Shown here one piece after another: positions 4,304 to 44,715 of a DNA stretch of 44,715 bases. The translations under genes and the position numbers were made by a program. The stretch is from the IMG/VR virus record IMGVR_UViG_3300038441_001572, positions 1 through 44,715 of that record; one strand, written 5' to 3'. Position 1 is the stretch's first letter. The number at the start of each line of letters is the position of its first letter. The notes beneath the pieces were generated by a model that searched no databases, was not told where the DNA came from, and saw nothing but the letters and a program-made list of their open reading frames with translations. This stretch comes from a virus.

Positions 4304-4735
4304 GTGTTCACCTCAGAACAATTGCACGGGTGGTTTGAGTATCTTGAGAACGGGTGGCTGCGTAGAAAGACAGGTCCGTTTAAAGGGAAGCTAGCTGGCA
4401 CGTACAACTCGTCAGACAAATATATCTATGTGTACGTAGAAGATAAGAAATATGCTGCTCATCAATTGATCTGGTGTATGCATACAGGCCGGTGGCCTGA
4501 GCTGGATATCGATCACAAAGATCGAATCAGAGATAACAACCGGATAGAAAATCTGCGTGAGTGCAGTAGATCTGTTAATTTGCACAACCGTGAAGCAAAA
4601 GGAATACGCCAGCTTCCAGGTGGAACTTGGGAAGCACGCGGGTGCCGTCATTACATTGAGGTGCATCTAGGCTGTTTTACTACTGCAGAAGAAGCTCGTG
4701 TTGCCTACCTCAAATTTAAAGGAGAAGTTAAATGA
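4304..4735 (+). CDS. HNH homing-type endonuclease with AP2-like C-terminus
   Basis: The GTG at 4304 is preceded by AAGGAG (4293-4298). The 143-aa protein has the HNH_3-type core: IDHKDRIRDNNRIENLR then NLHN, with the metal-binding His in IDH and the two Asn in N-R-I-E-N. The C-terminal stretch GCFTTAEEARVAYLKFK resembles the AP2-like DNA-binding module that often accompanies free-standing phage HNH enzymes. By family it would nick or cut a specific DNA site and spread by homing. It is more AT-rich than its flanks and its stop overlaps the polymerase ATG (ATGA at 4732-4735), so it looks like an insertion beside the polymerase gene. Confidence 0.88.
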   Translation: MFTSEQLHGWFEYLENGWLRRKTGPFKGKLAGTYNSSDKYIYVYVEDKKYAAHQLIWCMHTGRWPELDIDHKDRIRDNNRIENLRECSRSVNLHNREAKGIRQLPGGTWEARGCRHYIEVHLGCFTTAEEARVAYLKFKGEVK

Positions 4736-7035
4736 CCCGTGTCTGTGGGTTCTTCGGAATTGAGAACTCTGGGATCGAAGGCCAGCAGGATCGAGTACAC
4801 CTGCCGCGAATCCAAGAGTTCCTCGGTCCGGGCAATGCATTCAAAGTTGCTTTGTCCGAGGACGGAATAGAATACTTCGCCACTTTTGCCGCAAAGGCCA
4901 AGGGCGCGGGATTGGATGCAGCAATCATCACGGATCAACTCCTGATGACTCAAGTCCTGCAGGCGCTTCCAGATTTCAAGCCCAGCTTCAACAAGAATGG
5001 ATCAGAGAAGAAGCTCAGTCTGAATGATTACCATGGAAGCTTCTTCACCATCCCTGGATTCAAGCTGAATCGAGAGAAGGATCTGGATGTTCTCATTCTG
5101 AATCCGCTCTCGCATCTCCGCACGGTGCCAGAAGCGCCCTTCATCTTCAAGCGATTTGTCTCCAAGATCAGCAAGCCTGAGTCCTGGTTCCCGCAAACGG
5201 AATTCACTTGGGAACTCGCAACAGAATCCAGCATCGAAGCTCTCTATGAAAAGTTCCAGACTGCCCTTCTCATCGCAGCGGACATTGAAACGGACGAGGG
5301 AAGTGAGCTTCGAACGATTAACTGCAGCGGTTATTGTGCTCTGTTTCCTGATGGCAGCACTCATGCAGTGGTCATTCCTATTGATTCTATGTGGGGTGTC
5401 CAATGGATGAAGTTGTTCAACTCTCTTCCAGCGCCAAAGGTGTATCAAGGTGGACTATACGATAACCTGTATAAACTGCGGTACGGAGCGCCGACATACA
5501 ACTGGCTCTACGACACACAACACTTGTTTCATTCGTGGTTCTCAGAACTTCCTAAGCGTCTTGACTACATTACCGCGTTTGCCCTGCGCTACGTGCGGTT
5601 CTGGAAAGATGACGGTAAGAGTGGAGGTTTGCTTGGACATTACGAATACAACGCCCGTGACACGTGGGCTACACTCAATAGCTGCCTGTCACTCTTGCTC
5701 GAAATGCCAGCCTGGGCTAAAGAAAACTATCTCCAAGAGTTCCCCGTAGTCTTCCCATGCCTGCATTGTGAAGCCGATGGCATGGCTACGGATGAAGCCG
5801 CTTTTGATGCGAGCCGCAAGAAAGTCCTAGAGACTCTTGAGCCGATCGAAGCCAGACTCCGCAAGTGGATTCATCCAGACTTCAACCCGGCAAGCTCGCA
5901 GCAAGTTAAGCAGCTGCTGAAAGTTCTCGGGTGCGCTGACAAGAATGGGAACGTAAAATCCTCAGACGAGAAAGCGTTGAATGCAGCTGCTGCTGCACAC
6001 CCTCTGAACGAATTCATTCTCTCAGAAATTCTCGAGGTGCGCGGTCTTCGCAAGCTTCGTGACACGTACTTGGTTAAGGAGAAACTCTGGAATGGAAGAC
6101 TGTTCTGCAAATTCAACCCAGCTGGAACTGACACTGGACGACTGGCATGCATGGAGTCTAGCTTCTGGTGTGGACTTTCTCTACAGACGATTCCTGGAAG
6201 AGATGGACCCGCAATTCGGTCCTGGATCAAAGCGGATCCTGGCTGGCTTCTTGGCGAGAACGATCAGCCGCAATCAGAAGCGCGATGTGTCGGATACCTT
6301 AGTGGCTGTCAGAATCTTATTGACCTCGTTGAGGGACCACACGACTACCACAGTTGGAACGCACAGAGTTTCTTCGGAGTTCCTTATGAGGAAATCTATG
6401 ATGAAGCTCTCAAGAAAACTCTGAACAAGGCGCTTCGTGATCTGAGTAAGAGAACCAATCACGGAGCAAACTACAACATGGGTGCGGCTGTCATGCTGGA
6501 TACCATGGGGCCGAAGAAGGTTGCAGAAGCGAAGCGAGTTCTGAAACTGCCAGCGAAGATGACACTGCTGGAAGTCTGCGGACACTTGCTTGCTGCGTAT
6601 GAGAAGACCTACCCTGAAGTCAAGAAGGATTGGTATGACGATATCAAGCGTACGATTGGAATCACGAAGAAGCTTGTCTCTCCGCTTGGGTGGACTCGTC
6701 ATTTCTTTTCGGACCCTAAGAGTTCTAAGCCGGCGCTCAACGCTGCGGTGGCTCACGGACCACAGAACCTTTCGGTCGGGATCATCAACAAAGTCTTTTA
6801 TCGGGTATGGCGTGAGAGCGTCTACGGTTCACTTCGTGGGGCTCTCCGTATTAAAGCCCAGATTCACGATAGCATCCTTTATGGGTACAAGGACCCGGCC
6901 GTACCGGAAATGGTTAAGTCTCTCATGGTCCTCCCCGTTCAAGTCAAAGACATCAAGGGCAAGACAAGAGAGATGATTATCCGACCGGACATTTCCGCCA
7001 AGCCCGGCGCTACGCACTGGTCACAACTCAAGTAA
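4732..7035 (+). CDS. Family A DNA polymerase with 3'-5' exonuclease domain
   Basis: The 767-aa replicative polymerase starts at the ATG at 4732 (AAAGGAG upstream), overlapping the HNH stop. The proofreading domain shows Exo I (D184-I-E186), Exo II (QGGLYDN) and Exo III (YNARD). Polymerase motif A is DQPQSEAR beginning at D511, where most relatives have DYSQIELR. Motif B is RDLSKRTNHGANYNMG. Motif C is IHDS with H712 and D713, where HDE is usual. The catalytic aspartates are therefore kept although motif A is divergent. There is no 5'-nuclease domain. The next gene is a DUF3987-like helicase, and the pair probably forms the core replisome. Confidence 0.96.
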   Translation: MTRVCGFFGIENSGIEGQQDRVHLPRIQEFLGPGNAFKVALSEDGIEYFATFAAKAKGAGLDAAIITDQLLMTQVLQALPDFKPSFNKNGSEKKLSLNDYHGSFFTIPGFKLNREKDLDVLILNPLSHLRTVPEAPFIFKRFVSKISKPESWFPQTEFTWELATESSIEALYEKFQTALLIAADIETDEGSELRTINCSGYCALFPDGSTHAVVIPIDSMWGVQWMKLFNSLPAPKVYQGGLYDNLYKLRYGAPTYNWLYDTQHLFHSWFSELPKRLDYITAFALRYVRFWKDDGKSGGLLGHYEYNARDTWATLNSCLSLLLEMPAWAKENYLQEFPVVFPCLHCEADGMATDEAAFDASRKKVLETLEPIEARLRKWIHPDFNPASSQQVKQLLKVLGCADKNGNVKSSDEKALNAAAAAHPLNEFILSEILEVRGLRKLRDTYLVKEKLWNGRLFCKFNPAGTDTGRLACMESSFWCGLSLQTIPGRDGPAIRSWIKADPGWLLGENDQPQSEARCVGYLSGCQNLIDLVEGPHDYHSWNAQSFFGVPYEEIYDEALKKTLNKALRDLSKRTNHGANYNMGAAVMLDTMGPKKVAEAKRVLKLPAKMTLLEVCGHLLAAYEKTYPEVKKDWYDDIKRTIGITKKLVSPLGWTRHFFSDPKSSKPALNAAVAHGPQNLSVGIINKVFYRVWRESVYGSLRGALRIKAQIHDSILYGYKDPAVPEMVKSLMVLPVQVKDIKGKTREMIIRPDISAKPGATHWSQLK

Positions 7036-7049
7036 ACAAGGGCAACGCC

Positions 7050-8345
7050 ATGAGTGCAGCAGTCCTCCCACTTGCTCAGAAGCCAGACCTCTTCGACTTG
7101 TACTTCGAATACACGAAGAACACTGAAGCGACAACCATTCACCACAGGTGGTCTATGGTTGGCTGTTTGAGTGCGCTTCTAGGTCGACAGGTTTGGCTTC
7201 CATTTGGTGAGTTCCGAATCTTCCCGAATCAGTACATCATGCTGATCGGGGAGAGCGGTGCGAGAAAGTCCACCGCGATCAAGATGGCGAAGAAGGTTCT
7301 CTCCGCGCACGGGTATAAGAACTTTAGTGCGGAGAAGACCACAAAGGAAAAGTTCCTCCTTGACTTGGAGGGGCTGGAAGAAGCGAGTGATGCAGAGGTT
7401 GCAAACACTCAGGTCATGCAGAATCTTGGCTTAGGAGATATTCATGCAAGCGAACCCAAAGAAGTCTTTATCGTTGCTGATGAGTTCAACGACTTCATGC
7501 GCACCGGGGACACCGAATTCCACAGCATGCTCGGGGCGTTGTGGGACTGGGACGATGAAACCAAAGGATACACACAGCGACTCAAGAACTCCAAGTCTGT
7601 GTCAATCTACCAGCCAACAATCAATTTGCTCGGAGGAAACACGCACGTCGGATTCGCAGATATGTTTCCTCCTGCGTCGCTTGGACAAGGCATCCTGAGT
7701 CGGATGCTGCTGATCTTTGCAGAACCGAGCGGGCGAAAGATTGCATTCCCTGAGCCTGCAGATGCAGCAATTCGTGCGCAGCTTTCAGGTCTTCTTACTC
7801 AGATCAAGGAGAAGATCCAAGGTCCGATGAAGATGACGGACAAAGCAAAGGACATGATGCAGACGATCTACAATAGCTATTCTGGTGTGACGGACATTCG
7901 ATTCAACAGCTACAACACCAGACGCTATACGCATCTTTGGAAGATGTGCATTCTGGTTGCCGCAGCGAGACTCAAGATGGAAGTGGGAGTTGCAGAGGTG
8001 CTCTATGCGAATACGGTTCTCGCCTACGCAGAACATTTCATGCCGAGAGCGCTCGGAGAATTCGGCAAGAGCAAGAACTCAGAAGTTGCAGGGAAGATTC
8101 TGCAGGTGCTGGAGAAAGCTGGACACGCACTCACTGTAGATCAGCTCTGGGAACAGGTTCAGAGCGACTTGGACAAGATGCAGGATCTTGCCTTGTTGCT
8201 GGAAGGTCTGAGACAGGCTGACAAGATTCAGTATGTCAAAGAGCTTAGGGCATTCATCCCTAAGAGAAAAGTCCTCAGCACGAAGGAAGTTTACGTGGAC
8301 TACAACTTGTTGAGGGAATTCAAAACCGTGAAGCTGGGAAACTAG
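7050..8345 (+). CDS. DUF3987-like replicative helicase/ATPase
   Basis: The protein is 431 aa with Walker A GESGARKST (G67 to T75, K73) and Walker B VFIVADE (D144, E145). The sequence around them (LLGGNTHVGFADMFPP, then GQGILSRMLLIFAEP) is typical of the DUF3987 family of phage and plasmid primase-helicase-like proteins. It lies 14 bp after the polymerase gene. A C-terminal region of about 90 residues is helical and may be a winged-helix-like DNA-binding part. No primase zinc finger or primase catalytic motif is seen, so any primase activity would have to come from elsewhere. Confidence 0.88.
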   Translation: MSAAVLPLAQKPDLFDLYFEYTKNTEATTIHHRWSMVGCLSALLGRQVWLPFGEFRIFPNQYIMLIGESGARKSTAIKMAKKVLSAHGYKNFSAEKTTKEKFLLDLEGLEEASDAEVANTQVMQNLGLGDIHASEPKEVFIVADEFNDFMRTGDTEFHSMLGALWDWDDETKGYTQRLKNSKSVSIYQPTINLLGGNTHVGFADMFPPASLGQGILSRMLLIFAEPSGRKIAFPEPADAAIRAQLSGLLTQIKEKIQGPMKMTDKAKDMMQTIYNSYSGVTDIRFNSYNTRRYTHLWKMCILVAAARLKMEVGVAEVLYANTVLAYAEHFMPRALGEFGKSKNSEVAGKILQVLEKAGHALTVDQLWEQVQSDLDKMQDLALLLEGLRQADKIQYVKELRAFIPKRKVLSTKEVYVDYNLLREFKTVKLGN

Positions 8346-8369: not shown

Positions 8370-8900
8370 ATGGAAGAAAGCTACTATGACAAATACAACA
8401 AGTTCGCGGATGCTTGCGACATTCCTCGAGGCACCATCGGTGGAGAGTTGGATGTCGCATCAATTCTCCTTGCTCACAGCCTCGTGGTTGAAGAGTGGGA
8501 ATTTGAAACCAAGACGGACCTTGCCAAGTATCTCGCTAGCCCTACGCTGGAGAATCTCGTGGAGGTGGCTGATGGAATTGCTGACACCATCTACGTCCTC
8601 TGTCAGCTTGCTCGTAGCATGGGCATCCCTCTTAACGGTGTATTTGATTGCGTCCAGTTCGCAAACATGTCCAAGGTAGGAGAGGATGGAAAGGTTCGGC
8701 GACGGGAAGATGGCAAGATCCTCAAGCCGGAAGGTTTCGTTCCTCCGAACGCAGCGATCTTCAAGCTGCTGCAGAAAGAGTTGGACCGGAAGTATCTGAG
8801 CGAGAATCCAACCCTGCAAGCAGACACCGGCTGGAAGATTCAAGCCGCCAAAGACGGTGTGACGGAAGCAGAAGACGTCGCATTCAAGCTGATGGACTAA
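8370..8900 (+). CDS. MazG-like all-alpha NTP pyrophosphohydrolase
   Basis: The protein is 176 aa. The N-terminal helices carry an acidic metal-binding pattern (LVVEEWEFE, then LVEVADGIADTIYV) and are followed by the tail block FANMSKVGEDGK, then DGKILKPEGFVPP. That tail is shared by phage MazG/PRA-PH-like enzymes. The family hydrolyses (d)NTPs or related nucleotides to monophosphate and pyrophosphate. In phages it is proposed to clean nucleotide pools or lower alarmone signals. It sits directly upstream of the Acb2-like sponge, so the two may form a nucleotide-signal countermeasure pair. That pairing is inference. Confidence 0.85.
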   Translation: MEESYYDKYNKFADACDIPRGTIGGELDVASILLAHSLVVEEWEFETKTDLAKYLASPTLENLVEVADGIADTIYVLCQLARSMGIPLNGVFDCVQFANMSKVGEDGKVRRREDGKILKPEGFVPPNAAIFKLLQKELDRKYLSENPTLQADTGWKIQAAKDGVTEAEDVAFKLMD

Positions 8901-8910
8901 GGAGAAAGAC

Positions 8911-9234
8911 ATGGACAATCAACATCGCCAGATCAAAGGCTACCGAGAGCTGGACAGCCAAGAGATCTACCTGATGAACAAGGTGAAGAGCCTTGGTGCA
9001 GAATTGGATGCGGCACTGAAGGAAGTGAAAGCATTCAACGATGACCGCTACCAGGAAGCGGAGCGGCGTTCCAACTCAAGTGACCAGACGGAAGAGCAGG
9101 TGCGAATCGCAAACGATGTTCTTGCAAATCACCACTACGCAGAACCGAATCGCTGGACTGCAATGGCACGAACTCAGTTTCAAACGGGTCTGATGTACTT
9201 GACTCGGGCAGTAGCGAAACCTGAGTTCCTCTGA
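8911..9234 (+). CDS. acb2: Acb2/Tad1-type cyclic-nucleotide sponge (anti-CBASS)
   Basis: The ATG at 8911 follows AAGGAGAAAGAC. The 107-aa protein begins MDNQHRQIKGYREL and continues with EIYLMNKVKSLG. It ends with NRWTAMARTQFQTG, then MYLTRAVAKPEF. These two blocks are the hallmark of the Acb2/Tad1 helical-hairpin family (DUF7681). Members form hexamers that sequester cyclic di- and trinucleotides made by CBASS or Thoeris-like immune systems. The middle insert (about residues 43-78) is longer than in the compact Acb2 proteins I know of and is polar, so it may be flexible or change partner choice. It is the last gene of the rightward arm, before a terminator. Which ligand it binds cannot be read from the sequence. 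Confidence 0.88.
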   Translation: MDNQHRQIKGYRELDSQEIYLMNKVKSLGAELDAALKEVKAFNDDRYQEAERRSNSSDQTEEQVRIANDVLANHHYAEPNRWTAMARTQFQTGLMYLTRAVAKPEFL

Positions 9235-9253: not shown

Positions 9254-9289
9254 AATCCCTCAACGGCCTAGTGCCTGCGAGGGATTTTT
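9254..9289 (+). terminator. Intrinsic terminator of the rightward arm
   Basis: AATCCCTC (9254-9261) pairs with GAGGGATT (9279-9286), and a T-run follows (9285-9289). It lies 20 bases after the acb2 stop, and a copy of the word TGAACACAGCGC lies immediately upstream at 9232. It ends the rightward transcript at the point where the two arms converge. Confidence 0.88.
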
Positions 9290-9308
9290 CACGTCCAGAA
9301 TTTAGTCG

Positions 9309-9334
9309 AAAAAAGACCCCGCCGAAGCGGGGCT
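9309..9334 (-). terminator. Intrinsic terminator of the leftward arm
   Basis: On the minus strand CCCCGC, TTCG tetraloop and GCGGGG (9332 down to 9317) are followed by TCTTTTTT. It lies about 40 bases beyond the stop of the last leftward gene and faces the rightward terminator, insulating the two arms. Confidence 0.92.
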
Positions 9335-9803: not shown

Positions 9804-12800
9804 CTACTCGGGGAGGGAACTAGGTGCTTCAGCGAGAGTTGAATAGTCCTGCAGAGGCTCTCCACCCATGAGAGCTTGCATCTTCTTGCCGTAGGGAGAG
9901 CCAACCTTCTGTGCCATCTGGTTCACCACGGAAGTGTTGGCATCGCGACTCCAGCGTTGGAGAGAACTGGAGAAGGTTTCGATCCGTCCACCGCTCTTGG
10001 CGTAAGAACTCATGAAGTCTTCCATGTCTTCTGCATCTGGCATCTGATTGTTGCTGAGTTTAGTCTTGACTGCCTGACCAAGAGCATCAATCTTTGCCCG
10101 ATCCATTGCTTCGTAGGACTTGTTGCGATAGAGCTGATTCAGCGCGACTGCTTCGTCCATCGGACGTGCACCCATAAGGCGCGGAATCCCACCGAAATTC
10201 ATCACGCGATCTGGAATCCGTGCAAGCATGCTTGTCGTCTCCAGGTCATTCGCAGAAGAAATCAGACTGCCTTTCCCAGTAGTGGTTTGACCCGCCAGAA
10301 GTTGCGCAAATCCTGCAAGCGGTCGATTCCAACCTTGATGCTCCAACGCTTGCAACATAGAAGAGCTTACATCCGCACCCTGTGCCACCTGACGGCCGAA
10401 TCCTGCCACCGCTCCTGCAAGTTTGATACTCGCAGAGACAGCTGGAATGTCAACAGGATTGATCGGGAGAATGGAAAGATGACGAGGATTGATGTCGCCA
10501 CGAGAATAGAGCGCAGGTGCCTTCTCTCCAAAGAGCGGGAAAGCGCTTGCAGTTCCATAGAGCATCCAATCTCCAAGCTCCTTGTTCGCAGCGGGCAGGA
10601 AACTGTACGCATCTGTGTGGCTGGTATTTCCACTCGCACTGCCGATCAGATGCTGATTGATGGCATCGAAGAATGGCAGACCATTCATCCCATAGATGGA
10701 GCTTTGCAGTCCAGCAAAGGTAAGGAGCGCTCGCTTATTTCGATCTTCCATGTGTCGGAAGAGTTGCTGCAGCACGTTGAACGCATAAGTCTGGAAAAGA
10801 CCAACTGCCGCTCCGGTAGTTCCTTGGAATACCACCGGGCGTTGGCTAGAGATGTAGTTTCCTTGGACGCGATTGACGAAGGACGAAATGTACGCATTTT
10901 GTTCCTTAAGATCCATGATCCCCTTAGCAACCAGAGGATCGCTCAGTTGTCGCATGACATCTGCAGAGACAAAGCGAGTGAACTCTTCAGAGAACGTGTT
11001 CCCTGTGATCTTTGCACCCTTCTCAATCGCTGCATTCACCTTGCCATTCCACTCATCGAACTTCCGATTCGGAACGTAGGCAAGATCATCAAGCACTTCA
11101 TGGTAGAGCGTGGCAACATCCTTGATGTCACCATTGGCCTTGTACCGCGCGATCAGCGCTTCCTTGTCTGCGCCGAAAAAGTTCTTAACCGCTTGGCCCA
11201 ACAGCTTAGTTGTTGAGGGAACAGCACCTTCAGCGCCTGGAACTTTCACGCTGGTGAGCTGACCGAGTGCACCAACAAGTTCAGGATCGCGTGCTGCAAG
11301 CGCCCGAATACTCGCCAACTCTGTGCCCAGCATGATCGGAGTGCTGATCACGTTCACAAGCGAGTTAGCAAAGTCAAACCGCAAGACAGTCGTGGCGAGC
11401 CACATGTTTGCCTTTTGGAATGCGATCTTGATTGCGTTCTTCGGCACCTTCTCATTGGCGACAAGATAGTCCTCCATGGTTTTGTAGGGCGCATTCAGCC
11501 CCACATCTTCCATGAGTTTGTTGGCCTTGTCCAGACTCGCAAGATCCTTCCCCTTGCTGCCGCGGAATTCGCTCCACAAGTCATCCAGCACAGAGTAAGT
11601 CTTCGTGCCGATCTTGTCCACGAACTCGTTAAGAGAATCAAGCAGCGGGAACTCTCCTTGCTTGGAGATGTTCAGGGCAGTCTTGATGTAGTCTCCAAAG
11701 GGATCCTGAATTCCCTTGCGAGCAGCGAACATACCTTTGGCAACAGAAGTAGACGCGGATTGAAACTGCTCCGAGAGAAAGCTGAGTTCACTAAAGAACT
11801 GCCGATGCTTGACTTGAACGGCTGATCGAACAAGATTGTCGCTTGCATTCCCGTGCCACCGTACATAGTCTTCGAGTACGTTTTCAGCACGTGTTTCAGG
11901 AAAGAAATCTCCCAGGACACCCTGTCGCTGCAGCTGGCTGTTGACTTTGCTTTCGTTGATCTGCATGCTGTAGTCATACTCACCTCGTGCTTTGAAGAAC
12001 TTCGCAGTGTCTTGCTTGAAGATGACTTCATAGTCGTCTCCAACCTTGCTGGCCAGCTGACGAAGTTGCTCTTCATTCTTCGCCGTAATCATGGCAAGAT
12101 CAGTGCTCGCACCGATCCGCTCCTTCGTCCGCACGAATGCGAAGAAAGGATAGCGACGCGTATCGACTGGAGGAACATAGACGCTGCGAGCATCCAGCTC
12201 CCGTGAAATTCCAGTGGCATTGAGCAAGCTCGTTTGCTTCTGAATTCGCTCTGCATTCAAGCCAGTGGAATTCTCCAGGAAGTCTGCAACTTTCGAGTCC
12301 TTGATTCGATACTCGCCAGCGATCTTCTGGTCCGGAGTTCCTTGCGCCTTCACGTAGTTGATGGCATCGTCAAGATCATCCACCTTTCCCGACTCGAAGA
12401 GCTTCACAGCTTCACGATCCACGAGGCGGACTTGATCGCTGAATTCATCTCGCACCATGTAGTAGCGACGGGAGTCTCGACGCAGCGCAGTCGTCAGAAC
12501 ACCAAGTTCCGCGGCTGCATCCACAGAGTCTCGAATCGCATTCACATTCGGAGCGAGCTGCTGGATCGTTGCATCTCTCCACTTCTGGCTCACCAATGCA
12601 GTCTGCTTACCAGTGTCCTGGACAAAGAGTTCTGCTTGCCGACCGTAGTCTGCATTGCTCGCACCAAACGCTTTCGCACCTGCACCTTGCTCACTCACGC
12701 CCTGAATGAGATCCTTCGGCGCGTTGAGGAACCGTTCTGCATCATCTCCCATCACCGCACCGAATGCATTGTCGCTTTCGTTCTGACGGATCTTGAGAGA

Positions 12801-14840
12801 GTAGTGGTGACCAAGAACAGCAGTAGAGTAGTGGTTGGGACCAACACTGCCGCCCTGATAGATGGCTTGCTTCGCGCCCATGTCCCATTCAACTTGAACG
12901 GTCTGCGGCTTGAAGTACGCACTCAGGTCTCGACCTTCCGCCAGAAGTTGGCGACTCTGCCCGAAGTTGTTCGAGATGGCATCCTCCACCCACTGGCGAC
13001 TTCCGTTCACAGCGGTGGAGATTTCTCGAATGTCATAGCCCTTGATCTCCTTGCCAAGCTCACGCTCCATCCACTCCAGCTTCAGGCCCTGAATGTACTC
13101 TCCAGAGTTCACCAGATCCGAAAGCGGAATGAGTCTTCCATCCTCCAGCTTGATCTTCACCAAGTCAGAGTTCTGGTAGTTCTGGGGCAGATTGCGGGCA
13201 CGTTCCAGCAGCGGAAAATCATCCCATGCAATCGTCTTGTTCTTGAAGTAGACATCATCAAGTTCTCGCGCCCACATGAAGCGAGCGCTGGCATCGAGAG
13301 AACTCGTCTTCAAGCTGGCTTTCACACTCTCTGCCTGCTCAAAGACTTTCTTCCCGATCTTGACTCCACTCGTTCCCAAATGGGTGAAGTCTCCAGCCTT
13401 CTTCATCAGGTCGGCGCCAGTGAGAACCACGTCTCCACTGAGACTTCCAGTCTCCAGATCAAGATAGAAGTTGGTCTTCAGTGCCTGATCGGGAGTCTTG
13501 CTGATTACTTGAGACTTTGGATTGATGGCGAGCTTTCCAGACTTCGTGAAGACTGCATCGTAGCCTGCTTCGAATGCCTCATCTGCATCATCGAACCCCA
13601 TTCTAGCAACACTTCCAAACTTAATTTGGCGGGGATCGTCAGTCTTGAGGTAGTAAGCTTGTTTTCCAGTTCCCTTTCCACGCACGTCAGAGAACAGGTC
13701 ATCAAGTCCTTTGGGAGAGTCCGTAATGAAGAATTGTTTCGGGGCGATTGCAGTTGCAGAATCTTCCGCGAGTGGCGTGACACGTTTGACTCCTTGAAGA
13801 TAGCCGAGCACTTCATCCGCAAGATCATCTTGACTCCGGCCAGCTGCACGGCCAGTCTTGATCTTGTCCGCAATGAACTTGAACATCGCCTGACCCGTAA
13901 CTTCCCCACCTTCAGCAAGCTCATTGAACTTGAGAGCAAGCGTGTCGATTGCAACTTTCTGGGTTCGATCCGCGATGTTCTTGAATGCCTCTCCTGTGTC
14001 CAGCACACGCATCTTCCCCTTTCCTCCGATGTCGAAAGCAAAGTTCGTGTTGAAGAAGTCATCAGGCAGTCGCACGATGTTCTCTGCGAAGATTGCAGTT
14101 TCATCACCCTTGCTGAGACCGAGTTTGACAGGATCAAAGACCGTGTCGAAGAGGCGGCGATTCCCTTCAATCTTCAGCTGCGCCTGCTTCAGAATTCCTC
14201 GCGTGCCCGCGTGCTCAAGAATCCCGCCGATCGCTCCACCGAACAAAGCACCAGTGGCCACGTTCTTTGCGAAGTCTCCGAAGTCGTCTCCTTCAAAGAT
14301 CGGGGAATCATTCATCGTCGCCACGATGGCAAGTTCTGCTGCAGCACTCGTCAGAGTCTGATCTGCAAGCGCCCAGCCAAGTTGAGCACGTTTCGCACTC
14401 GTGACTGCAGACGTGACGCTGCCGCCAGACTTTGCCAACTCTGCAAAGGCACGCTCGAAATAGAGATCCTTCCGGCTCGTGGTCAGATTCAATGCGCGCC
14501 CGATCGGACCCAACGCAGTGCCACTCTGAGCGAGCTTCAGTCCTTTGACTCCAAGCGCCCCTGGAACCAAACTAGCACCGACAAAGCCAGCCACATCAAC
14601 AACTTCCTTGTTGTCGTTGTAGTAGTCTCCCCACGAGGCATCGTACTGCCGAATGGTCTTCTCCGTGTCTAGTGCTTCTTTTCCTGCGTAGTCCAAGCCT
14701 GTGTTGTAGATGGAAAGCGCACCAGAAACAACAGCGGATGGAATCCCCTTCGAGATACCGTCCTCCAGACGAGAGAAGAAACCGCTCTGTCCATCAATTG
14801 TGTCTGATGCCAAAACCACTGGCGAGTCATAGTCTGCCAT
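9804..14840 (-). CDS. Large internal virion (DNA-ejection) protein, 1678 aa
   Basis: This is the longest gene, starting at the ATG at 14840 with AAGGAG upstream. The protein is a mix of long helices and Ala/Gly-rich hydrophobic stretches (for example GFVGASLVPGALGVKG and ATGALFGGAIGGIL) that could insert in membranes. Its size, its place at the end of the structural block and its adjacency to a transglycosylase-bearing protein match the core proteins that podoviruses such as T7 eject to form a DNA channel. I see no lytic enzyme motif in it. The role is inferred from size, composition and context. Confidence 0.82.
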   Translation of the reverse strand: MADYDSPVVLASDTIDGQSGFFSRLEDGISKGIPSAVVSGALSIYNTGLDYAGKEALDTEKTIRQYDASWGDYYNDNKEVVDVAGFVGASLVPGALGVKGLKLAQSGTALGPIGRALNLTTSRKDLYFERAFAELAKSGGSVTSAVTSAKRAQLGWALADQTLTSAAAELAIVATMNDSPIFEGDDFGDFAKNVATGALFGGAIGGILEHAGTRGILKQAQLKIEGNRRLFDTVFDPVKLGLSKGDETAIFAENIVRLPDDFFNTNFAFDIGGKGKMRVLDTGEAFKNIADRTQKVAIDTLALKFNELAEGGEVTGQAMFKFIADKIKTGRAAGRSQDDLADEVLGYLQGVKRVTPLAEDSATAIAPKQFFITDSPKGLDDLFSDVRGKGTGKQAYYLKTDDPRQIKFGSVARMGFDDADEAFEAGYDAVFTKSGKLAINPKSQVISKTPDQALKTNFYLDLETGSLSGDVVLTGADLMKKAGDFTHLGTSGVKIGKKVFEQAESVKASLKTSSLDASARFMWARELDDVYFKNKTIAWDDFPLLERARNLPQNYQNSDLVKIKLEDGRLIPLSDLVNSGEYIQGLKLEWMERELGKEIKGYDIREISTAVNGSRQWVEDAISNNFGQSRQLLAEGRDLSAYFKPQTVQVEWDMGAKQAIYQGGSVGPNHYSTAVLGHHYSLKIRQNESDNAFGAVMGDDAERFLNAPKDLIQGVSEQGAGAKAFGASNADYGRQAELFVQDTGKQTALVSQKWRDATIQQLAPNVNAIRDSVDAAAELGVLTTALRRDSRRYYMVRDEFSDQVRLVDREAVKLFESGKVDDLDDAINYVKAQGTPDQKIAGEYRIKDSKVADFLENSTGLNAERIQKQTSLLNATGISRELDARSVYVPPVDTRRYPFFAFVRTKERIGASTDLAMITAKNEEQLRQLASKVGDDYEVIFKQDTAKFFKARGEYDYSMQINESKVNSQLQRQGVLGDFFPETRAENVLEDYVRWHGNASDNLVRSAVQVKHRQFFSELSFLSEQFQSASTSVAKGMFAARKGIQDPFGDYIKTALNISKQGEFPLLDSLNEFVDKIGTKTYSVLDDLWSEFRGSKGKDLASLDKANKLMEDVGLNAPYKTMEDYLVANEKVPKNAIKIAFQKANMWLATTVLRFDFANSLVNVISTPIMLGTELASIRALAARDPELVGALGQLTSVKVPGAEGAVPSTTKLLGQAVKNFFGADKEALIARYKANGDIKDVATLYHEVLDDLAYVPNRKFDEWNGKVNAAIEKGAKITGNTFSEEFTRFVSADVMRQLSDPLVAKGIMDLKEQNAYISSFVNRVQGNYISSQRPVVFQGTTGAAVGLFQTYAFNVLQQLFRHMEDRNKRALLTFAGLQSSIYGMNGLPFFDAINQHLIGSASGNTSHTDAYSFLPAANKELGDWMLYGTASAFPLFGEKAPALYSRGDINPRHLSILPINPVDIPAVSASIKLAGAVAGFGRQVAQGADVSSSMLQALEHQGWNRPLAGFAQLLAGQTTTGKGSLISSANDLETTSMLARIPDRVMNFGGIPRLMGARPMDEAVALNQLYRNKSYEAMDRAKIDALGQAVKTKLSNNQMPDAEDMEDFMSSYAKSGGRIETFSSSLQRWSRDANTSVVNQMAQKVGSPYGKKMQALMGGEPLQDYSTLAEAPSSLPE

Positions 14841-36268: not shown

Positions 36269-36501
36269 ATCTCTATGAACTTGCACATCATCCGGAAGCA
36301 TGGAATGTAAATCAACTCGGAAATAACGAACAGGAGGTGAATCATTGTTGGTTTGGTCACGCGGATAACTCTACAATGAAACAGTTCTACATGTTGATTG
36401 AATTACATGAGAATGTTGCCAATCACACAGATGAGAATGAATTCCGCATGCATCTCCTGTTCGTATACTTCGCAACTACTGATGAAAAGGAATGGCCGTG
36501 A
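36265..36501 (+). CDS. Hypothetical protein, 78 aa
   Basis: The ATG at 36265 follows AAAGGGAATCAA and overlaps the previous stop. The protein begins MNLYELAHHPEAWNVNQ and ends with a hydrophobic stretch and acidic tip (MHLLFVYFATTDEKEW). That layout is reminiscent of the LAEEAL family next door, although residue identity is weak. It is soluble and His-rich. No function recognised. Confidence 0.72.
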   Translation: MNLYELAHHPEAWNVNQLGNNEQEVNHCWFGHADNSTMKQFYMLIELHENVANHTDENEFRMHLLFVYFATTDEKEWP

Positions 36502-36821
36502 AAACCTCTGAATTCCTCAAGCGAGCTAAATCTCTCATTGATTCACCTGAGAAGTGGACACAAGGTGTGTGCGCTAGGAATATTGACGGTAAAGAAGTAA
36601 GTGTTCATTCTCCTTCAGCAGTTTGTTTCTGTTCTGAAGGTGCAATTCACGCGGCTACAAATCAGTTTAATATCAAACAACGAGCTAATAAGTATGCAAT
36701 GTTGCAATCTGCAGTCGGATCAAACCTAGAAGTCTTTGAATATAATGATTCCCACACCCATGCAGAAGTAATGCTCGCATGGGATAAAGCAATTAGTTTG
36801 GCTGAAAGTGAAGGAGATTAA
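36498..36821 (+). CDS. DUF6197-like protein, 107 aa
   Basis: AAAAGGA abuts the ATG at 36492 but stands seven bases from the GTG at 36498, which also overlaps the previous stop as GTGA, so I prefer the GTG. The pattern WTQGVCARNIDGKEV, then SAVCFCSEGAI, then FEYNDSHTHAEVMLAWDKAI is that of the DUF6197 family. The gene at 37322 is a diverged second copy (SAWTRNKYARN, CMFCCLGAI, FNDDPATTHDDVLRVFDLAI). The family is common in phages and actinobacteria and has no established function that I know of. Confidence 0.78.
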   Translation: MKTSEFLKRAKSLIDSPEKWTQGVCARNIDGKEVSVHSPSAVCFCSEGAIHAATNQFNIKQRANKYAMLQSAVGSNLEVFEYNDSHTHAEVMLAWDKAISLAESEGD

Positions 36822-37321: not shown

Positions 37322-37696
37322 ATGACACCGAAAGAAGTTCTCATTGCGGGAAGGTTGCGGATTCAGTCTGAATCAGCGTGGACTCGGAATAAGTACGCAA
37401 GAAACGCGCTTGGTGCGGCAGTCGCATCCACGCATCCAAACGCATGCATGTTTTGTTGCCTTGGTGCAATAGATCATGAGCTGACATGGTCTGAAGATCG
37501 AGCAGATGCTGCAAGTTGTCTGTTAAAGGCAGTACGTAAACTGCACAAAAACAAACCCGCAGTTTACGGTGTGCCTGAATTCAACGACGATCCAGCCACT
37601 ACGCATGATGACGTCTTGCGAGTGTTTGATCTTGCAATTGATCTTGCGCGTGAAGCGGAAGAAGCAGCAAAGGAGAAGCAAGATGGAGCAGTCTAA
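37322..37696 (+). CDS. DUF6197-like protein, 124 aa, second copy
   Basis: The ATG at 37322 follows GAAAGGAATCAATC. Its three conserved blocks align with those of the 36498 gene, including the Cys-rich ACMFCCLGAIDHE and the FNDDPATTHDDV motif. The C-terminus adds a charged Lys/Glu tail. It overlaps the lipoprotein gene at its 3' end. Two DUF6197 genes in one small genome suggest subfunctions rather than redundancy. Function unknown. Confidence 0.78.
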   Translation: MTPKEVLIAGRLRIQSESAWTRNKYARNALGAAVASTHPNACMFCCLGAIDHELTWSEDRADAASCLLKAVRKLHKNKPAVYGVPEFNDDPATTHDDVLRVFDLAIDLAREAEEAAKEKQDGAV

Positions 37697-44301: not shown

Positions 44302-44715
44302 ATGACAAGCAAGAAGCGGAAGTACAAGCAAGAGATGAATCTTGCAGCAAGCAAGCGCGAGAGCGAACTCCTTCCCGCAGAGGGGCTCATCACTGTGAGC
44401 TTTGTCTTCGGGGGGATCCGACACGTTGAGCGACACCGTCTGAATGAATTCGAACTTCGCCAGATGAAGGAGCTCATTCAGCAGCACGGCGGACTTGCAA
44501 GTCAACAAGTTGTGTGGCGTGGTGCAATCAAATGCGCAGAACAAGTTGCGAAGAATTGCGTGGCTGAAGCAGGCCAGCGATTCGACGAAGAGTTCGGCCC
44601 GAAAGTTAAGGTGGCAGATGCGGTGGAAGTGGAAGAGGCAGCAATTCCCAATGTCTTCTCCGCAGCAGGACTCGGAATGAACGCAGCGCAAGAAGCCCTG
44701 CAAGTCACCGAGAAA
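44302..44715 (+). CDS. Hypothetical protein, N-terminal 138 of 151 aa (continues at the window start)
   Basis: The ATG at 44302 follows AGAAAGGCACTGGCA. The frame runs off the end and continues at bases 70-111, giving 151 aa. The N-terminus is very basic (TSKKRKYKQEM), the middle contains a beta segment (GLITVSFVFGGIRHVERHRL) and the rest is helical. It is a soluble protein of unknown role placed immediately upstream of the replication block. Confidence 0.78.
   Translation, partial: MTSKKRKYKQEMNLAASKRESELLPAEGLITVSFVFGGIRHVERHRLNEFELRQMKELIQQHGGLASQQVVWRGAIKCAEQVAKNCVAEAGQRFDEEFGPKVKVADAVEVEEAAIPNVFSAAGLGMNAAQEALQVTEK
44647..44715. repeat. Terminal direct repeat, right copy
   Basis: This is an exact copy of bases 1-69. 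It allows the sequence to be closed into a circle and lies wholly inside the gene that starts at 44302. Confidence 0.9.

Follow-up and report, generated by a model that had tools for sequence, protein, structure and literature searches.

A homologue of the Acb2 cyclic-oligonucleotide sponge, of ordinary length for its family, at the end of the early operon of an uncultured podophage

The open reading frame at 8911-9234 of a viral genome raises the question of whether it encodes an enlarged and perhaps functionally altered cyclic-nucleotide sponge, as proposed in the initial annotation, or an ordinary member of the Acb2 family. The window analyzed here, meaning the whole stretch of DNA, is a virus record of 44,715 bases. 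As it carries a 69-base direct terminal repeat (1-69 and 44647-44715), it is probably a complete, circularly closing genome assembly. The reading frame was found exactly where it had first been placed, and the gene and its subregions are as follows.

8899-8904, plus strand: ribosome-binding site AAGGAG of acb2, read from the sequence and sharing bases with the stop of the preceding MazG-like gene
8911-9234, plus strand: acb2 homologue, 107 aa, identified by PF24729, by phmmer to PDB 8h2j and by a family HMM
8938-9033, plus strand: residues 10-41, comprising the first conserved block and the beginning of the hairpin and including Y11, N23, and K26, from a 90-member alignment
9034-9138, plus strand: variable polar linker, residues 42-76, without counterpart in compact members of 72-77 aa, similar in length in JBD67 and longer in VP882
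9151-9222, plus strand: second conserved block, residues 81-104 (RW...T88...M95...R99...P104), from the alignment

The start codon lies 10 bases past the stop of the MazG-like gene, and the N-terminus, MDNQHRQIKGYREL, coincides with the start (MDNQH) of nearly all relatives. Both GC and GC3 of acb2 are like those of the adjoining genes.

Assignment to the Acb2 family is well founded. The Pfam profile PF24729, which describes the Acb2/Tad1 hairpin, matches residues 10-103 of the 107-aa product across all of its positions (1-58 of 58) with 47.6 bits (E=2e-12), above its curated cut-off of 27 bits. PHROG 717 matches at 3e-21, and phmmer finds two solved Acb2 proteins, PDB 8h2j (3.4e-17) and 8ixz (1.7e-16), while a profile of Acb2 relatives also reaches T4 Vs.4 (PDB 7uq2; 7.9e-6). 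A family HMM scores the protein at 117.5 bits, the family behind that model having included the window sequence itself. Searched by tblastn, the protein has matches in 221 phage and 51 plasmid records. PADLOC returned no match, as would be expected of an anti-defence gene. The claims that both conserved Acb2 blocks are present and that the gene belongs to this family are thus confirmed, with matches far above chance (PF24729, 2e-12; phmmer, 3.4e-17) and with closest solved relatives that are all Acb2.

As PF24729 models the hairpin of Acb2 and Tad1 alike, it could be asked whether the protein is instead a Tad1-type sponge directed mainly against Thoeris through gcADPR. In Tad1 (Thoeris anti-defence 1), an N-terminal antiparallel beta sheet precedes the two helices (PMC12043709). 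The window protein has this hairpin Pfam model in common with Tad1, and Tad1 alone has the additional beta-sheet domain and binds gcADPR. Since the hairpin match fills residues 10-103 of 107 and leaves no space for such a domain, and since the nearest solved relatives are Acb2 throughout, we reject the "Tad1-type" part of the original label and regard this reading as hardly credible.

Retention of the ligand-binding residues was assessed in an alignment of 90 Acb2 members from viral contigs and named phages, a set retrieved with similarity to the window protein as the criterion and thus no unbiased sample. Six positions (Y11, N23, K26, M95, R99, and P104) are invariant in all 90 members and are kept in the window protein, as is T88, which is conserved in 84 of the 90. 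In PaMx33 Acb2, K26 contacts dinucleotides; the site for cyclic trinucleotides in Acb2 is located at the trimer interface. In the alignment, Y8, T68, and F82 of T4 Vs.4/Acb2, a very divergent protein of 88 aa, correspond to Y11, T88, and A102 of the window protein, with PaMx33 likewise having A at the last of these positions. In T4 Acb2, Y8A abolishes binding and activity, F82C weakens binding, and T68M is described as lowering affinity (PMC12657218, PMC12657230). As judged from the alignment, the known dinucleotide-site residues Y11, K26, and T88 are unchanged in the window protein.

It is conceivable that the window gene encodes a decayed or repurposed Acb2 relative in which nucleotide binding has been lost. 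Natural loss-of-function alleles of acb2 exist (PMC12657218), and the T2 and truncated PaMx41 genes are reported or suspected to encode non-binding proteins that avoid Panoptes; several near-invariant positions are, moreover, altered in the window protein. Against this, the reading frame is intact and preceded by a good ribosome-binding site, and the invariant residues listed above are all retained, so that we consider loss of binding highly improbable.

We therefore favor, with a probability of about 0.9, the interpretation that the window gene is an orthologue of the Acb2 cyclic-oligonucleotide sponge and that its product is an ordinary family member sequestering CBASS-type cyclic nucleotides. 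Published work describes Acb2 as a hexamer that sequesters cyclic di- and trinucleotides, leaving them undegraded, and in this way keeps CBASS effectors blocked (PMC12043709, PMC12657218). All results obtained here agree with a like role for the window protein. As the product of the last gene of the early (replication) operon, it should be present when the host alarm signal arises. It would most likely fold as the Acb2 helical hairpin and assemble into a hexamer. Such a hexamer would be expected to bind cyclic dinucleotides, and probably trinucleotides, with no degradation, and the sequestered ligand would leave CBASS effectors inactive during infection. It had also been proposed that the host carries CBASS or a related cyclic-nucleotide defence. 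That it has CBASS does not follow from the gene, as Acb2 can also meet the cA3 signals of type III CRISPR (PMC12043709) or trigger Panoptes (PMC12657218), and the window protein could do likewise. To trace the host, bacterial genomes were scanned for relatives of the major capsid protein, and none was found.

The feature originally singled out as novel is an enlargement by about 35 polar residues. As a count relative to the most compact members this holds, since linker residues 42-76 amount to 35 residues, 77% of them polar, and in the window protein the distance between N23 and the RW motif is 58, compared with 25 in the 74-aa members. As a distinguishing trait it does not hold. Across the 90 distinct proteins, lengths range from 72 to 118 aa, with 77 shorter and 12 longer than the 107-aa window protein, and this continuous distribution rules out an "enlarged variant" as a category. 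Named examples span much of the range: PaMx33 Acb2 has 93 aa and a linker 14 residues shorter than that of the window protein, and the proteins of JBD67, Klebsiella phage LASTA, Aeromonas phage HJ05, and VP882 have 108, 111, 116, and 117 aa, respectively. Linkers of this length are, in addition, not confined to one lineage.

The most instructive of these comparisons is with JBD67, a temperate Pseudomonas phage (Beetrevirus) whose Acb2 is 42.5% identical to the window protein, nearly equal in length, and one residue longer in the linker (spacing of 59 vs 58), although its gene lies in the structural region instead of closing an early operon. Deletion and complementation of JBD67 acb2 are described in a passage of PMC13083879 that cites Huiting et al. 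2023. Because this 108-aa protein has, according to that passage, already been tested genetically, a linker of such a size is not a new state. The extra linker is most likely tolerated length variation at the variable tip between two long helices.

It could nevertheless be speculated that the long linker, as in the initial annotation, and with it the unusual residues Y20, Q89, and Y96 change the ligand range or the subunit contacts. The window protein is divergent, and at otherwise nearly fixed positions it has residues that are rare in the family, namely, Y20 (71 of the 90 members have D), A35 (85 have L), Q89 (77 have D or H), Y96 (86 have A), and L107 (66 have F). In the Acb2 tree it sits on a long end branch (0.91, against a median of 0.13), with a placement that is poorly supported because the alignment offers too few columns. 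A review also reports that the ligand spectrum varies among Acb2 homologues (PMC12043709). However, linker length varies freely in the family, including the longer linker of the JBD67 protein whose gene was tested as cited above; linkers of such length are not bound to one lineage; and the known dinucleotide-site residues are intact. An altered ligand range is thus possible but unsupported, and we judge a change in ligand or subunit contacts unlikely.

Placing the gene into genomic context supports its interpretation as an ordinary Acb2. It is the last gene of the early operon, and its surroundings are as follows.

4732-7035, plus strand: family A DNA polymerase, 27% identical to PaMx33 ORF29
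7050-8345, plus strand: primase/helicase (DUF3987) of the acb2 operon, 34% identical to PaMx33 ORF28
8370-8900, plus strand: MazG-like nucleotide pyrophosphohydrolase of the acb2 operon (PHROG 671, 6e-25; PRA-PH, 2.2e-5)
9254-9290, plus strand: intrinsic terminator of the early operon, just 3' of acb2, with an 8-bp outer stem, an inner hairpin, and a T run (-15.3 kcal/mol)
9316-9333, minus strand: intrinsic terminator of the convergent late operon
9804-14840, minus strand: large structural protein, a putative internal virion protein, encoded convergently to acb2 and homologous to PaMx33 ORF23

The order in the window, polymerase, primase, MazG-like gene, acb2, back-to-back terminators, and convergent structural genes, closely resembles that in PaMx33, where DNA polymerase, primase, pyrophosphohydrolase, two small genes, and acb2 are followed by terminators on both strands and a convergent large structural gene. 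The acb2 gene of PaMx33/PaP2 (ORF24/p26, PDB 8h2j; Fredfastierviridae, Jamesmcgillvirus) therefore occupies the identical slot, again with terminators on both strands, and its product is 40% identical to the window protein over 105 residues, with the same Y11 and K26. The Acb2 of these phages, which infect Pseudomonas aeruginosa, differs in having 93 aa against 107, and protein identity across the genomes is only about 25-40%.

At that level of identity, 12 window proteins match PaMx33 in identical order: small and large terminase, portal, major capsid, endolysin, and the large structural protein in the first half of the set and Acb2, primase, DNA polymerase, a Sak4-like ATPase, a nuclease, and a helicase in the second. 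The initial classification as a podophage is supported by kinship with PaMx33 and PaP2, Pseudomonas podophages in which Acb2 was discovered, and on gene content the window phage is a distant, collinear, Fredfastierviridae-like podophage relative of them. By terminase and capsid, its best named relatives are Pseudomonas Fredfastierviridae phages, Aeromonas phage P5, Polaromonas phage Tiera, and EBPR podovirus 3. When the first 25 kb of the window were compared with phages by megablast, no match appeared, and for that part there is accordingly no near DNA-level relative among named phages. The description of the phage as lytic stays a proposal: no integrase or repressor was found among roughly 35 window ORFs scanned, yet the related phage Shea, of podovirus morphology, is reported to be pseudolysogenic (PMC13348215). 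Rfam and tRNA scans gave no hits.

Occupation of the same slot in so distant a relative could mean that acb2 was inherited there or that it arrived in the same slot twice; the Acb2 tree has too few columns to place the window gene as sister to the PaMx33 gene or apart from it. Among closer relatives the gene is rare. Tiera, P5, and EBPR podovirus 3 have none, and Acb2 was found in 1 of 29 related metagenomic records, the same single record being the only carrier among the 13 that exceed 40 kb. The early-operon slot is spanned by 18 related loci, none of which shows Acb2 in it; in the ten of these whose slots were read, other small ORFs stand in place of acb2, and among these loci are two (L117 and L119) with polymerases 70-72% identical to that of the window.

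A compact Acb2 of 74 aa, of the same family as the window protein, is present in metagenomic podophages (L064/L009, L101/L013, L078/L025, and L026) that are close kin of the window phage (major capsid, 71-74% identity; terminase, 59-61%). In three of them, with capsids 71-74% identical, it is an extra gene inserted in the late operon, with the gene that follows portal on one side and the scaffold gene on the other (L064, 4965-5189; L101, about 4959; L078, 4941-5165), and the 43.5-kb record L101 has no second copy. In the capsid tree, the window stands beside five relatives without detected Acb2 in the available DNA, and the portal-site carriers fall elsewhere. Because Acb2 is rare in the window clade and a 74-aa copy occupies another site in three relatives, it behaves as accessory cargo there, with two insertion sites and two classes of length. 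It could be supposed further that swappable cargo of this kind entered the one podophage clade at two sites as two length classes and that the divergent window form had its ligand range or oligomer contacts shifted by the linker and by Y20, Q89, and Y96; taken as a whole, this combination is unlikely.

The window gene adds to the family a member from an uncultured clade of podophages. It also shows PaMx33 sharing its acb2 slot with a phage only very distantly related to it, whereas the majority of nearer relatives have no Acb2 or have a shorter one at another site. Slot sharing and patchiness together support the view of Acb2 as exchangeable anti-defence cargo. The accepted view of Acb2 function is unchanged by the window gene, and enlargement, the novelty proposed for it, does not set it apart from the family.

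Several further observations were made. In the slot that separates the primase/MazG genes from the convergent structural operon, the small genes differ from one relative to the next (L117, 6270-9186; L119, 6288-7407; L121, 6243-8663; L125, 6234-8754), and this slot may be a cargo site, perhaps with other anti-defence genes. In Vibrio phage 252E42.2, a podophage (L052), acb2 also directly follows the portal gene. Primase homologues in three relatives contain one or two in-frame stops, TAA or TGA (G024:C1:5995-7332, G025:C1:35606-36922, and G029:C1:34497-35792), which could reflect recoding, an alternative code, or error. In the early region of the window, two DUF6197 (PHROG 762) paralogues lie close together at 36492-36821 and 37322-37696, with one unrelated ORF between them.
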